Origin: Chloroflexota bacterium
GTDB lineage: Bacteria > Chloroflexota > Anaerolineae > VGOG01
Length of the DNA stretch: 11,539 nt
Assembly (NCBI GenBank): GCA_030615705.1
Contig: JAUWYT010000019.1
Coordinates: 1 to 11,539 of the forward strand
Direction: 5' to 3'
The position numbers were made by a program, and so were the translations under genes. Below, one piece after another: positions 4,925 to 11,539 of this stretch. The notes under the pieces are model-generated. The model made no database searches, was not told the origin of the DNA, and saw only the letters and a list, made by a program, of their open reading frames with translations. Every line of letters begins with the position of its first letter. Within the stretch, counting starts at the first letter, position 1.

Positions 4925-5278
4925 TCAGTAGATTATCAGCGCTGCCGCAGGCATCATTGATAGCAAGAGATTCTCCCTCCAGACGAGATAAGAGCGTTCC
5001 CGTGGGGCGAGCCTGCAGTGCCAATTCGCATCCAAGGGGGCGAGAGTGCCCAATGCGCAAGCTTGTATAGTCGAAGCGAAGTGTCGCCAACGGTGCTCCA
5101 CTCCCGATTGGCTGGGCATGGCCCGGGAGCGGGTCATTAGCCTGGCCTTGATATCCTGCCAGACTTGGGGCGAGGGCTCCTCGCCAGCTACCGAGTCCAG
5201 AAGGGCCCAGCGGATCAACTCATCAATTTCATCTAGAGGTTGCCTCTCCATCTTTGGCTGGATTCTACGAAAACTCAT
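4925..5278 (-). CDS. Small protein coupled to ECF sigma factor, possible anti-sigma-like partner
   Basis: A 117-residue protein that I do not firmly recognise. The N-terminal half is helical and acidic/basic (DEIDELIRWALLDSVAGEEPSPQVWQDIKARL), similar in style to short proteins encoded next to ECF sigma genes in Chloroflexota. The central part has two cysteines but no HxxxCxxC zinc anti-sigma motif. The C-terminus ends with a short hydrophobic stretch (NLLLSMMPAAALIIY), barely long enough for a membrane segment, and stops there. Its ATG at 5278 overlaps the sigma gene end by 14 bp, so translation is probably coupled. Position makes a sigma-regulating role likely, but that is inference. It could also be a shortened anti-sigma factor. 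Confidence 0.75.
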   Translation of the reverse strand: MSFRRIQPKMERQPLDEIDELIRWALLDSVAGEEPSPQVWQDIKARLMTRSRAMPSQSGVEHRWRHFASTIQACALGTLAPLDANWHCRLAPRERSYLVWRENLLLSMMPAAALIIY

Positions 5279-5846
5279 AGACTACCTCCGGCGACAAACG
5301 CCTATCCCTTTCCAGCTTGCGACGCAGATTTCGGCGAGCGTAATGCAGACGAGACTTTACCGTACCCACCGGGCAATCCGAGATATAGGCGATCTCGTTC
5401 AAGCTAAAGCCATCCAGGTAGAACAGAACAATTACCACTCTGTGCTCGAAGCTTAAGGAAGCGATGGCTTTCTGAATAACGCGTTGCAGCTCCCCCCTCT
5501 CCAAGACAGACTCAGGCAAGGTATGTGGGCCTGCTACCAAGCAGTCAATTACCTCTTCCAAAGGCCTCAGCCAACGGCTCCTTTTGGCGGCCCAGTTGTA
5601 GCTCAGGTTCACGGCCACCCGATGCAGCCAAGGGGACAAGGGGAGAGAGCCATCTAGTTTGTCAACATGGGTGTAGACTTTCAAAAAGCAATCTTGGAGG
5701 ACGTCTTCCGCAGCCTCCCGATCGCGAGTGATGGCTAAGGCAGTTCGATATACTTGGCCCTTGTATTTCTTGTACAGGGCTTCCAGGGCCAGGATGTTCC
5801 CCTGGCGAATTTGAGAGATCAATCGGCCGTCTTCACTGAGCGACAT
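5265..5846 (-). CDS. RNA polymerase sigma factor, ECF (sigma-70 family)
   Basis: A 193-residue ECF sigma factor that would direct RNA polymerase to a specific promoter set. Region 2 spans about residues 15-90, with RDREAAEDVLQDCFLKVYTHVD and the WLHRVAVNLSYNWAAKRSR segment that melts and reads the -10. Region 4 spans about 120-178 and has a helix-turn-helix with FSLNEIAYISDCPVGTVKSRLHYARRNLRRKL. Length is normal. The ATG at 5846 is preceded by GGGGAGA. It is the first gene of the transporter operon, with a promoter and a CRP/FNR-like palindrome upstream. Whether it recognises its own promoter is unknown: the visible promoter looks like a housekeeping sigma-70 promoter. Confidence 0.95.
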   Translation of the reverse strand: MSLSEDGRLISQIRQGNILALEALYKKYKGQVYRTALAITRDREAAEDVLQDCFLKVYTHVDKLDGSLPLSPWLHRVAVNLSYNWAAKRSRWLRPLEEVIDCLVAGPHTLPESVLERGELQRVIQKAIASLSFEHRVVIVLFYLDGFSLNEIAYISDCPVGTVKSRLHYARRNLRRKLERDRRLSPEVVYEFS

Positions 5847-7442: not shown

Positions 7443-7486
7443 AAAAAGAGGTTTGAGGGTGCCATCAAAAGCCACCTTCAAACCTC
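7443..7486 (-). terminator. Intrinsic terminator of the fdrA-type operon
   Basis: A 14-bp stem is formed by 7448-7461 and 7473-7486, with a single imperfect pair and an 11-nt loop. Read on the minus strand the stem is followed directly by TTTTT (7443-7447), the layout of a rho-independent terminator. It lies about 260 bp after the stop of the last fdrA-operon gene and about 65 bp upstream of the LysM promoter, separating the two transcription units. Confidence 0.85.
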
Positions 7487-7745
7487 TCACTTTATCTGAA
7501 TGTAACCAGAATCCATTGTGCCTAGCCGCTGATGCGGGCTTCTCTATTCACCAGCCTGCATAACTGGCCTGAACTTGTAGCCATAAAAGTTTACTCAAAA
7601 TGTCGAGTATACCCTTTGCTACCCGGTTCTGCTACACGGAAGACAAGAGGGTGTCGCCCATCGTAGCAATTGGATAGACAACTGGGTGAACACTTACTAG
7701 CCCGAAGTCGTGTAAGACCTGTAGATCTGGCAAAGTCATCCCCGA
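7487..7745. other. 259-bp stretch without a recognised gene, probable 3' untranslated region
   Basis: This lies between the 57-residue protein gene and the terminator, so on the minus strand it would be a long 3' untranslated region. I find no tRNA, convincing ribosome-binding site plus frame, or promoter. A small hairpin with loop TGAT is present near 7523-7540 but has no T-tract. A small RNA or lost gene remnant cannot be excluded. Confidence 0.5.
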
Positions 7746-7919
7746 TCACAACAGTTTATCTAGCAATTCCGCCATCTCTGCGTCACCACCGGCAGGCGGG
7801 GACCAGTCCACGTGAACGACCTCCACTCCCTGATCTTGCAGGCTCTCGGCAAACTCACGCACTCCGAGGCTAATGACCACAGGCCCATTCTGGAGCAATT
7901 CTTCGAGTTTAGTCTTCAT
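7746..7919 (-). CDS. 57-residue FdrA-operon small protein (stand-alone domain)
   Basis: A short cytosolic protein directly after the FdrA-like gene. It has an amphipathic start (KTKLEELLQ), a central VVISLGVREFAESLQDQGVE and the marked motif VEVVHVDWSPPAGGD, then a short helix (AEMAELLDKLL). From memory of the family, this motif resembles small 'fdrA domain' proteins and the N-terminal segment of longer DUF1116 proteins, a segment missing from the DUF1116 protein here. I choose the ATG at 7919 (GAGGA 5 nt upstream) over a GTG at 7931. The gap to the FdrA stop is 14 bp. It is probably a subunit or structural piece of the complex, not a false frame. Confidence 0.82.
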   Translation of the reverse strand: MKTKLEELLQNGPVVISLGVREFAESLQDQGVEVVHVDWSPPAGGDAEMAELLDKLL

Positions 7920-7933
7920 GGGTTTCCTCACGC

Positions 7934-9481
7934 TTATAAGCTCAGCGCCAGCGTCCTGCTGAAGAGGGCAGTCTGGGCGCTGCTCGGCAGAACCACGACC
8001 CCACCCTCTTCCAGGGCCCTGGTTTGCTCCCGGAGGTTCTGTGGATCAGCCTCTGTGCCGCACATGGAGGCAACCACACTGAGGTAGCCACCGCGCTGGC
8101 TGGCAGTGGATTTGGCCTCTGCGATAGTCTCCAGCAGGTCGCCAACGGGATCAGGGGAAGCGTTGTAGCCCAGGATGAAATCCAGCAGGAGAACTGCCAC
8201 CTGCGGGTGCTGGGCTTCCGCCAGAATCCGTTCACGGCGGAGCGTCGCATCAATCATCGGGTGGGGACGGCCTTCCGTGAACATCTCCGCGCCCATGTCC
8301 ACCAGCGTGTGGGCCTCGCTGCGCAGAGGATCCGCCAGACTGAGCATCCCATCCAACGGTGCATTGGAATAGACCACCAGGCCCGCTTCCCGCATCACCT
8401 GCTGAGCCTGGTAGCAGAATGTCCCGCCAGCGAATATGCCCCGGATGTATTTCTGCTCCGGCGCCATGCCGGCTCGTTCTTTGGCAACAAGTGCCTGAAC
8501 TTCTTGAGAACCTACGCCCGTGCGCACAACTGGCTTGCCAGGCGCCAATTGAGTAGCCAGTGCGGCAGCCTCATCGAGGGTGCGTGCCGTCTCAAAGCCG
8601 ATATCGTTCTCGGAAGGGTATTTGCCAATACCAAGGAAACAGGCTACAACCGGCTTGCGGCATCGGTTAAGCCGCTCCACGAGAAGGGGAAGGGTCTTCG
8701 CGCCAGGTGGCTTGGACAGCACTGCGACAACATTGGTCTGGGGGTCAGCCTCAAGCGCCTCCAGGGCACTGAGGGTTGAGATACCACCGATTGTTGCGTC
8801 CGAAAGGTCCCCGCTGCCTGTGCCGATGGCGTGGGAGATGCCTGAGCCGCCCTGGTGAACGAGGCTGGTGAACTCCTGGAGCCCCGTGCCCGTCGAGCCA
8901 ATCACGCCGATTGGGCCTGGCCGAACGACATTGGCAAAGCCAATACCCACGCCGGCGATGATGGCCGTCCCGCAGTCAGGCCCCATGACGATCAGTCCCC
9001 GCTCTCGGGCGTACTGCTTGAGGGAGAGTTCATCCTCCACCGGCACGTTGCTGCTGAACAGGAACACGTTCAACCCGCGCTCAAGGGCCCTCCGGGCCTC
9101 GCGAGCGGCATATTCGCCAGGAAGGGACACGACAGCCAGGTTGGCATGGGGCTGGCGCGCCAGGGCCTCATCCAGCGTGCGCGAAACTGCCTTGCTGACA
9201 CCGACTGGCTTACGGAAGAGCCAGGCGTCCAGGTTCTCCAGGATCACCTCGATCGTGGATGGACTCTTCCCCTTGAGCGCAATGATCAGGTCGTTGGCGG
9301 CCGCCGACGAGATCTCCGCGTTTTCAAATCCGATCTCGGCCAGCAAGCCTTTGTTCTTCTCCGTCCCCATAAGCGCGGCGACCTGCTCGATCCCCGGCTC
9401 TTCTGACAGGCGCTTGGCGACTTGCATGAGGAAGACCGAATCAAAGTATTGGTTCCGCTTGATGGTATATCCCGTTGCCAT
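7934..9481 (-). CDS. fdrA: FdrA/AllF-like protein, succinyl-CoA synthetase alpha-like fold
   Basis: A 515-residue cytosolic protein of the FdrA family, built like an acyl-CoA synthetase of the SucCD type. The start MATGYTIKRNQYFDSVFLM and EQVAALMGT are typical. A nucleotide/CoA-binding-like part follows with VMGPDCGTAIIAGVGIGF (about residues 165-182), GPIGVIGSTGTGLQEF and GTGSGDLSDATIGG. The C-terminal half carries FAGGTFCYQAQ (350-360) and MGAEMFTEGRPHPMID. The SucD active-site GHAGA histidine motif is not seen. In E. coli, fdrA with ylbE and ylbF has been reported to encode oxamate carbamoyltransferase; here the substrate is unknown. ATG at 9481 has GGGAAGGG just upstream; a GTG at 9508 would overlap the previous gene by 4 bp. 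Confidence 0.93.
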   Translation of the reverse strand: MATGYTIKRNQYFDSVFLMQVAKRLSEEPGIEQVAALMGTEKNKGLLAEIGFENAEISSAAANDLIIALKGKSPSTIEVILENLDAWLFRKPVGVSKAVSRTLDEALARQPHANLAVVSLPGEYAAREARRALERGLNVFLFSSNVPVEDELSLKQYARERGLIVMGPDCGTAIIAGVGIGFANVVRPGPIGVIGSTGTGLQEFTSLVHQGGSGISHAIGTGSGDLSDATIGGISTLSALEALEADPQTNVVAVLSKPPGAKTLPLLVERLNRCRKPVVACFLGIGKYPSENDIGFETARTLDEAAALATQLAPGKPVVRTGVGSQEVQALVAKERAGMAPEQKYIRGIFAGGTFCYQAQQVMREAGLVVYSNAPLDGMLSLADPLRSEAHTLVDMGAEMFTEGRPHPMIDATLRRERILAEAQHPQVAVLLLDFILGYNASPDPVGDLLETIAEAKSTASQRGGYLSVVASMCGTEADPQNLREQTRALEEGGVVVLPSSAQTALFSRTLALSL

Positions 9482-9504
9482 AAACCCTTCCCAACGGCCC
9501 AGAA

Positions 9505-10758
9505 TCACTTCAGGCCATACTTTTCGGCAAATCTGATCAGAGCCCTCTTGAAGCAGTCCAATGGGGGGCGAACGAGGCCGGCGCCGATGATCGGATGGCC
9601 AGGGTTCTTGTGAGCCATGGCAGTATCAATTATCGGCGGGATGTTGGTCTGGACAACTTTTCGCACGTCAATCCCGACGGCGGTGCCTTCGAAGCCCAGC
9701 GCCGGGATGAGGAACTCCGGGCTGGTCGAGACGGTGATTTGCCGCATGTCTCGGCTGTAAGACAACGCCTCTTCCGGCGTGCCACCGACGAAGCTCAGGA
9801 TGCCGGGAGCCCCGCCGAGGACAAAGCCACCCCAGCCCACGGTTTCGGTGATCGCCGAGTCCCCTATGTCCAGCCCGGCGTCCTGCTCGCCATAGCCGGG
9901 CAGGAAGAGTCCTTTGACGGGCGGGGCCAGGGCGGTAAACCACTCACCTTCCAGGCCGCTTACCTGGATGCCGAACTCCGTCCCGTTGCGGGCCATGGCG
10001 GTGACGACGGTGCTGTATTCAATTCCCCGCGCCGGATCGGCGGTCGCTTTGGCTGCCGCCATTGATAGTCCCAGGAAGAACAACTGGTGACCAGCCAGGT
10101 AACGCAGGGTGCTGATGAGGGCCTCTTTCGGGATGCCAGCCTCGATCATGGGAACAGCCATGGCGTTGGCAAACAGACTGGACGCGGCGTGGGGCCGGTT
10201 GTGAAGCTCGTCGCCCATCTGCAGGGCGCGGGCGATGATCGGTTTGAGGCTAAGGCCACCCATCTGGCGCAAGCCGGCGCGTAGTGCTGGGGCCCAGGTA
10301 TCATGCCAACGAATCAAGTCCTGCAAGGCTTCTTGACTGGAATCGCCGAACTGCTGACGACCCTCGACCTGTCGGCAGTAGGCACGATTGCCGAAGGCTT
10401 TGTTCTCCACGACGAAGACCCACATCGAACGGGTGATCGTGCCCGCCATAGGGCCAACGGTCTGGTGGTGATGATTGGGCTCGAGGGTGATGGCCCCGTC
10501 TTCCAGGAGCTTGATCGCTTCTTCTTTGCTCCTGGCCCAACCCTCGAAGAGCAGCATCCCGATAACGGCACCCTTCTGTGCTCCGCTCATGCGTTGCCAG
10601 TCAACCGGAGGGCCGGAATGTAGCACCATCTTGTCTGTCAGGCCTGGGATCACGTCGCCTGCTGGTGCAACGTCTACTAACACGGGGTCGGCTGCCACCA
10701 TGCGACGAAAGGCCTCGGCATTGGCCGTCTCAATCCTGGTCTTGATATCCTTTGCCAT
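9505..10758 (-). CDS. DUF1116 protein, YlbE/AllG-like
   Basis: A 417-residue protein of the DUF1116 family, a partner of FdrA. Conserved-looking blocks are VLVDVAPAGDVIPGL (26-40), HSGPPVDWQRMSGAQKGA (47-64), the histidine-rich NHHHQTVGPMAGTI (95-108), MGDELHNR (181-188), NGTEFGIQVSG (258-268) and the end IDTAMAHKNPGHPIIGAGLVRPP (377-399). The histidines and acidic residues suggest a catalytic or ligand-binding role, but the mechanism is not evident from sequence. In E. coli the homologue YlbE/AllG acts with FdrA and YlbF in oxamate carbamoyltransferase. Start chosen at ATG 10758 (MAKDIKTR), with AGGGAG at 10766-10771; an ATG at 10764 is too close to it. It lies 81 bp after DUF2877, across a hairpin. 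Confidence 0.93.
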   Translation of the reverse strand: MAKDIKTRIETANAEAFRRMVAADPVLVDVAPAGDVIPGLTDKMVLHSGPPVDWQRMSGAQKGAVIGMLLFEGWARSKEEAIKLLEDGAITLEPNHHHQTVGPMAGTITRSMWVFVVENKAFGNRAYCRQVEGRQQFGDSSQEALQDLIRWHDTWAPALRAGLRQMGGLSLKPIIARALQMGDELHNRPHAASSLFANAMAVPMIEAGIPKEALISTLRYLAGHQLFFLGLSMAAAKATADPARGIEYSTVVTAMARNGTEFGIQVSGLEGEWFTALAPPVKGLFLPGYGEQDAGLDIGDSAITETVGWGGFVLGGAPGILSFVGGTPEEALSYSRDMRQITVSTSPEFLIPALGFEGTAVGIDVRKVVQTNIPPIIDTAMAHKNPGHPIIGAGLVRPPLDCFKRALIRFAEKYGLK

Positions 10759-10791
10759 AATCATTCTCCCTGATGAAAGATACAAAGCAAA

Positions 10792-10831
10792 GCGAGAGAA
10801 ATCCGCGTGTGATAATGTGGTTTCCTCTCGC
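10792..10831. other. Hairpin between the DUF2877 and DUF1116 genes
   Basis: Arms 10792-10804 and 10819-10831 form a 13-position stem (GCGAGAG paired with CTCTCGC at the base, two imperfect pairs) around a 14-nt loop. On the minus strand it is followed by TTTGCTTTG, only a weak T-rich tail. It may be a partial terminator, a processing site or an RNA stabiliser that sets the ratio of the flanking proteins. Confidence 0.55.
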
Positions 10832-10839
10832 CGAAGTGT

Positions 10840-11539
10840 CTACACATTTGCCTCCGTCAGCAACATTGCGGTCAGCACCCCGGCCAGCATATCCCAGCCG
10901 GAGGTGTGACCGATCCTTGTGAGCCGATCCACACTGCGCAGGAGACACCCCGCTGGTTCCGCTTGCAGGAGCGAGTTGACCAAATCGTGAAGCGGTTCCG
11001 GCCCATGACCCTGGGCGCAATCGGAAAGGATGGTATGGCTGATGCGATTGGTCAGGGGGCGCGCCCGGAGCAGGAAATCCAGAACAGGGCCTGCGCCCCA
11101 ACTGAATTCAGTCGGGTAGGCAGCCTTCAGGTGGTGAGCGGCAAAGAGCAGGCCCCCCAGATGATCATCCCCGGACGGCGTGAGCCCCGGGCCTAATCCA
11201 ACCAATTGCTCACTTTCCTCTGCTATGCGCCGCATGTCCCGGCCGAGACACGCTCTTGCAACCCTGGTGATCGGTCCCAGTGCTCGAGCCACAAAACGGT
11301 CCTGGGTGAAGGTCGGGGGGTGATCACCACCGCTGGCGAGCGCCGCGATCAAGGGGATGGTTTGACCCAGGCCCTTTGCAGTCTCAGGGGGTTCGAGTGC
11401 GGCAAGAAGACGCCGGAAGCCAGTGTTTACCACAGGCAATGGCGGCGCTTGTCCTGAGCCCCGCCGAAGGGCCTGTCCTGAGCCCGGCCGAAGGGCCTGT
11501 CCTGAGCCCGGCCGAAGGGCCTGTCCTGAGCCCGGCCGA
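10840..11539 (-). CDS. DUF2877 protein, YlbF/AllH-like (partial, N-terminus outside window)
   Basis: The third protein of the FdrA set. The family hallmark GLGPGLTPSGDDHLGGLL lies near 11146-11205, and the C-terminus has IGHTSGWDMLAGVLTAMLL, another conserved block. The frame is open to the window edge, giving 232 visible residues; family members are commonly longer, so the true start is probably outside. The first visible 30 or so residues come from a 24-bp tandem repeat read in frame (repeated RPGSGQAL). A TTG at 11439 could start a shortened protein, but it lacks a good ribosome-binding site. It would be the first visible gene of the operon. Whether the repeat is tolerated within the protein or marks a disrupted gene cannot be decided here. 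Confidence 0.85.
   Translation of the reverse strand, partial: RPGSGQALRPGSGQALRPGSGQALRRGSGQAPPLPVVNTGFRRLLAALEPPETAKGLGQTIPLIAALASGGDHPPTFTQDRFVARALGPITRVARACLGRDMRRIAEESEQLVGLGPGLTPSGDDHLGGLLFAAHHLKAAYPTEFSWGAGPVLDFLLRARPLTNRISHTILSDCAQGHGPEPLHDLVNSLLQAEPAGCLLRSVDRLTRIGHTSGWDMLAGVLTAMLLTEANV
11451..11539. repeat. 24-bp tandem repeat, 3.7 copies to the window edge
   Basis: Units begin at 11451, 11475, 11499 and 11523 (the last cut after 17 bp). The second to fourth are identical over what is visible; the first differs at a single base. Each unit carries the core GTCCTGAGCCCGGCCGAAGG, similar to the TCCTGAGCCTGTCGAAGG-type dispersed repeats seen in many bacteria. The unit length is a multiple of three, so it keeps the DUF2877 frame open. 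The array continues outside the window. Confidence 0.9.

Follow-up and report, generated by a model that had tools for sequence, protein, structure and literature searches.

A putative four-module AllFGH-type carbamoyltransferase operon in a Chloroflexota genome, with the AllF tail domain as a separate gene

The operon and its contig end

The window, by which we mean the whole 11,539-nucleotide stretch analysed here, is an entire contig (C121) of a Chloroflexota draft genome of 1.90 Mb that is 79.6% complete. AllH, AllG, AllF and a small ORF lie close together on its minus strand (Table 1). The AllF/FdrA frame spans 7934-9508 with a likely ATG start at 9481, and it scores 471 bits against NCBIfam NF004760, which has a cut-off of 433. 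The AllG frame spans 9505-10785 with a likely start at 10758 and matches Pfam PF06545 at E 5e-74. The AllH frame runs from 10840 to the end of the contig. The small ORF has AGGA before its ATG. All three AllFGH families are therefore present together, AllH only in part. Past the small ORF is a hairpin that is well below its shuffled versions in folding energy (z -4.4, 200 shuffles), and a consensus scan for terminators did not detect it. The sequence-only reading described FdrA-, DUF1116- and DUF2877-like genes in one tight minus-strand operon ending in a terminator. The family matches and the hairpin bear this out.

Table 1. Features of the operon, in window coordinates.
Feature	Position	Strand	Evidence
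AllH (DUF2877), 3' part of ~200 residues	10840..11440	-	PF11392 E 8e-21; 58% identity to the AllH frame of relative G138
AllG (DUF1116), importer-linked clade	9505..10758	-	PF06545; tree; 340 bits to PDB 3clq
AllF/FdrA body without C-terminal tail	7934..9481	-	NF004760; PDB 3dmy E 5e-82
Stand-alone AllF tail domain, 57 aa	7746..7919	-	Frame differs from AllF; tail alignments, tail HMM, weak Foldseek
Intrinsic-terminator-like hairpin, then U-run	7446..7488 (about)	-	-24.8 kcal/mol, 0/200 shuffles as stable
24-bp tandem repeat, 3.8 copies	11450..11539	.	TRF; contig end, within AllH frame

The same reading noted that no allantoin, oxalurate or carbamate kinase gene was visible. None is found in the window, which covers one side of the operon as the contig ends upstream. 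In this the window differs from the E. coli system. An Opp transporter lies downstream, and we rejected it as the importer of this operon because the terminator and other genes stand in between. Positions 4925-5846, beside an oligopeptide-type ABC transporter, hold an ECF sigma factor and a downstream ORF of 117 aa. This ORF has no Pfam family at E 0.001 and could be an anti-sigma factor.

The N-terminal ~130 residues of AllH are absent from the contig. Relative G138 has an open AllH frame of 336 residues, and the window matches residues 135-335 of it, with homology beginning at about 11440. Beyond the homology, up to the contig end, the frame is mostly the 24-bp repeat array. This repeat belongs to a dispersed family; allowing two mismatches or fewer, the genome has 12 copies of it, against 0 for the reversed control. 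One can imagine that the window's copy is decaying or misassembled, with the array in place of the front half of AllH, since homology stops at the repeat and no further AllH piece was found elsewhere in the window's genome. We consider this rather unlikely. The array sits at a contig end, it keeps the frame open (24 bp is 8 codons), and the end of contig C226 carries a copy of the same family. That makes an assembly break or an in-frame insertion as likely as decay, and all three are possible. The AllG, AllF and tail frames are all open, which also speaks against decay, as does a comparison of the window and G138 tails, with 12 synonymous and 5 nonsynonymous codon differences (13 at third, 3 at first and 2 at second codon positions).

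The AllF tail domain as a separate gene

The small ORF had been taken for a distinct fourth gene product. This has to be revised. We considered a new partner protein and rejected it, since the 57-aa product matches the C-terminal tail domain of AllF. Judged by its sequence, it is that domain as a separate gene, in a different frame from AllF, whereas in E. coli the tail is built into AllF and is contained in the chain sequence of the FdrA structure 3dmy. The ORF aligns with fused tails, including that of E. coli, and separate tails were aligned in 45 rows. The E. coli AllF tail and a fused copy on contig C86 of the window's own genome showed the relation before any profile was made. The tail HMM was built from 14 seed tails and run as a six-frame search over the collected loci; the window's tail is one of the seeds, so its own match is by construction. 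Pfam gives the window's tail a sole match at E 0.1 or better, far below that family's cut-off, and the Pfam matches on E. coli AllF end before the tail. For the predicted fold (pLDDT 79, pTM 0.44) no Foldseek match reaches E 0.001; the top two are both E. coli FdrA 3dmy and are weak (E 0.03 and 0.1).

The tail occurs in three places. In E. coli and one canonical group, including loci of the window's own class, it forms the C-terminal end of AllF; in another canonical group it stands at the N-terminal end of the AllG frame; elsewhere it is an ORF of its own following AllF. We counted these in an AllG set of 117 rows including the window, from which 28 overlapping loci and short AllG pieces had been dropped. 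A complete AllF is present in the same locus in 80 of the 117, and the 37 without one were set aside. Exactly one tail location is seen in 78 of the 80 systems, and two are never seen. The 78 divide into 19 fused to AllF, 9 fused to AllG and 50 separate. The two remaining systems are interrupted, L156 by masked bases and L183 by a contig end. The window has the tail once, as a separate gene, in keeping with a one-tail rule that is an observation of this survey and not a published criterion. It must be noted that fusion was called from the open frame, with start codons not used, which leaves L181 ambiguous. Canonical loci L036 and L068 were counted as AllF-fused because their separate appearance is an artefact of cut loci. 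Separate tails are not confined to the clade described below, since two canonical clostridial loci (L178 and L179) have them too.

Could the split be produced by read-through or a simple frameshift artefact? We reject this because 48 clade rows with a complete AllF have a separate tail, and about 250 bases lie between the AllF and tail genes in L038. That spacer includes a stretch resembling a dispersed repeat. With one tail location per system, in one of three arrangements, the tail would seem to be a module that the complex needs and that a three-gene description has masked. The function of E. coli AllFGH was itself assigned as late as 2024 (PMC11326118). Among the literature matches listed, titles and abstract openings contain neither a separate AllF tail nor a Chloroflexota AllG clade, so both the tail module in its three settings and the AllG clade are apparently new.

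The AllG clade and its neighbourhoods

A search with the window's AllG found matches in 156 of 396 genomes of the class. Six AllG loci are 66-100% identical to the window; the other rows are at 52% or less, among the matches listed. A peptide-pattern scan of genome contigs then gave 61 loci, of which 57 are treated as the clade. The scan favours near relatives because its patterns were derived from the clade itself. The context counts exclude loci L175, L178, L179 and L181, which are at 45-55% identity, and two of the 57 (L182 and L185) hold a partial AllG only. The record titles name Chloroflexota, Acidobacteria, delta-proteobacterial groups, Bipolaricaulota, Atribacteria, Actinobacteria and others, though most of these are labels given to MAGs and could be mistaken. 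The 117-row AllG tree, a quick tree with long branches, L175 among them, flagged, gives the clade an SH-aLRT of 100 with the window inside it and L175, which was included, at the base.

The clade (56 rows, L175 excluded) and 59 canonical rows part at 14 AllG alignment columns, 3 of which are gaps, with 92% or more agreement required on either side. E. coli AllG has the canonical letter at 10 of these columns, the clade letter at 2 and another letter at 2. A 3-residue gap removes Arg136 (E. coli numbering) in 56/56 clade rows, L175 left out, while this Arg is kept in all 59 canonical rows and in E. coli. The window's AllG lacks the canonical Arg-bearing segment of E. coli AllG; the importance of this segment is judged from conservation and not from a published criterion. 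Further clade-fixed changes are Asn128->Val, Gly132->Gln and Asn380->Asp, at positions where the canonical rows are nearly uniform. PDB 3clq, which we take to come from Enterococcus faecalis, is of the canonical type and retains the Arg. These clade-wide changes suggest an altered substrate specificity, and for this reason a substrate other than oxalurate is plausible.

The usual clade cassette is a Bmp/PnrA-type ABC importer followed by AllHGF and the tail, sometimes with a carbamate kinase or an aspartate carbamoyltransferase. Among loci with enough flank, a Bmp-type binding protein is upstream in 48/51, the importer ATPase upstream in 40/42, AllF downstream of AllG in 50/53 and the tail behind AllF in 46/47. 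Carbamate kinase is present in 9/57 loci and is downstream of AllG-AllF in 7 of the 46 with enough flank. Aspartate carbamoyltransferase-like genes are present in 6/57, and both of those tested pass TIGR00670. Biuret-hydrolase-type genes are present in 7/57, six with an amidase between the importer and AllH; of three that were tested, two score above the BiuH cut-off. Reference proteins of the ureide pathway were matched in only 2/57 loci (flanks up to 10 kb, biuret hydrolase outside the reference set), which agrees with what the window shows. Neighbour clusters include a LuxR-type response regulator (15 loci), a MASE1 histidine kinase (14), a PucR-type regulator (6) and an amidase (6). A few members of these clusters lie outside the cassette, and the family-model checks covered representatives only.

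Having the importer is not peculiar to the clade, since Bmp-type importers adjoin several canonical AllFGH loci as well. The clade is not uniform either. AllH was not found in 15/57 loci, some of them short, so a requirement for three subunits may not hold across the clade. In L127, L131, L147, L157, L159 and L169 the AllH profile has no match despite AllG, AllF and the tail being present. Three loci (L143, L168 and L177) have a clade AllG without AllF behind it. The loci without AllH and those without AllF speak against a uniform function across the clade. L143 has an Opp-type transporter directly upstream of AllG.

Reaction and substrate

We argue, with a probability of roughly 70%, that the operon encodes a four-module AllFGH-type carbamoyltransferase that phosphorolyses an imported ureido compound. 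In the complex, the AllF tail would be a subunit of its own next to AllH, AllG and the AllF body. The enzyme would phosphorolyse an N-carbamoyl compound as R-NH-CO-NH2 + Pi -> R-NH2 + carbamoyl phosphate. Uptake of the substrate in the clade is probably through the linked Bmp/PnrA-type ABC transporter, and the carbamoyl phosphate would go on to carbamate kinase, yielding ATP and ammonia, or to aspartate carbamoyltransferase. Purified E. coli AllFGH (FdrA-YlbE-YlbF), the oxamic transcarbamylase, catalyses oxalurate + Pi <-> oxamate + carbamoyl phosphate (PMC11326118). All three families are common to both systems, and because of this homology ureido phosphorolysis is the best reading. Carbamoyl phosphate as a product also fits the carbamate kinase and aspartate carbamoyltransferase-like neighbours. 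The sequences show what the genes and the tail are, the clade, and the linkage to the importer in relatives; the reaction (by analogy with E. coli AllFGH), its direction and the cargo of the importer are inferred. For the window the importer itself is predicted from the relatives, because the contig ends before the place where they have it.

FdrA carries an NCBIfam name (NF004760) that points to another activity, and its succinyl-CoA ligase folds would go with it: an acyl-CoA synthetase or acyltransferase. The phosphohistidine motif of the succinyl-CoA-synthetase alpha subunit is of the GHAG type. This motif is absent from 79 of 80 AllF rows and from the window's AllF, which favours phosphorolysis over ATP-driven CoA ligation. 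Carbamate kinase and aspartate carbamoyltransferase-like genes at some loci do not fit the name either, and E. coli AllFGH is a transcarbamylase (PMC11326118). We regard an acyl-CoA activity as very improbable.

A more serious alternative is that this is an ordinary oxamic transcarbamylase, with the importer bringing in oxalurate made by other microbes, so that only the genomic setting differs from E. coli. Imported oxalurate is a possible substrate. The three families are the same as in the characterised enzyme, and carbamate kinase shares some of the clade loci. Loci of the form biuH-allFGHK-bmpA-nupABC are reported from ammonia-oxidising archaea and comammox bacteria, and the nitrifier allFGHK and bmpA-nupABC loci are read there as oxalurate degradation (PMC12625717). 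The co-location of allFGHK, bmpA-nupABC and biuH is thus already published. Those loci share with the clade the Bmp-type importer, AllFGH, carbamate kinase and sometimes biuret hydrolase and amidase; they differ in belonging to other lineages, and the part of that report cited here mentions no tail module. Against an ordinary enzyme are the clade-fixed changes in AllG, including the loss of an Arg that by sequence comparison 3clq keeps. We think it unlikely on balance that these changes leave the substrate as oxalurate. The sequence-only reading went further and proposed a transferase of another pathway. A non-oxalurate substrate is made plausible by the AllG changes. That the pathway itself differs is no more than a possibility, and carbamate kinase does occur at clade loci.

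If not oxalurate, then what? The clade might act on biuret-, triuret- or allophanate-type acyl-ureas. Allophanate differs from oxalurate in having one carbonyl fewer. The biuret-hydrolase-type genes at clade loci, mostly with an amidase, favour this, and the window's own genome has a hydrolase nearest to structures 6XIX, 6XJ4 and 6XJE, which are of the triuret hydrolase TrtA (PMC7948467). However, this hydrolase is on another contig and scores 278 bits against BiuH where the cut-off is 370, and among the other five clade genomes searched the BiuH family scores no higher than 53 bits. That search weakens a universal allophanate role across the clade, and we hold an acyl-urea substrate to be unlikely on balance.

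One can combine these points into a broader proposal. The multi-phylum clade could be a dedicated uptake-and-phosphorolysis system for such non-oxalurate acyl-ureas, taking carbamoyl phosphate straight from environmental nitrogen compounds with a four-part complex whose small tail is swapped among AllF, AllG and a free-standing gene. We offer this tentatively and consider it less likely than not. The clade does suggest that many uncultured bacteria import ureides and recover carbamoyl phosphate. If true, this would matter for nitrogen cycling in groundwater, sediment and the ocean.

Carbamate kinase was found in 6 of the 8 genomes searched and is linked to the AllFGH system only in G288. It was not found in the window's genome or in G138, and these two have the lowest completeness among the six clade genomes. 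G300, G032 and G020 carry it next to YgeW-type genes on a separate contig, so in these genomes it may act in a different pathway. A search of the window's genome for the Bmp binding protein of the nearest relative gave no match, a weak null at 79.6% completeness.

The rest of the window's genome holds one hydantoinase-like gene and one molybdopterin hydroxylase on other contigs. N-terminal (C96) and C-terminal (C86) parts of a second, canonical AllF lie at contig ends and are possibly one gene split between contigs. Beside these parts (L007 on C96, L006 on C86) are a nitrilase-like gene and a CoA-transferase III gene. Because all of these genes and the TrtA/BiuH-like hydrolase are on other contigs, they are not attributable to the operon. 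The hydrolase locus (L194, 2446-3886 of contig C174) has a GntR-type regulator followed by the cysteine hydrolase, whose best PDB match is TrtA. Canonical AllFGH loci of the same class (L043, L083 and L084, and similarly L046) resemble the clade in their AllF and AllG families and in having a Bmp importer, and they are linked to a molybdopterin hydroxylase and PF04199 cyclase-family genes, some also to a hydantoinase or nitrilase. This looks like an uncharacterised heterocycle-degradation pathway.
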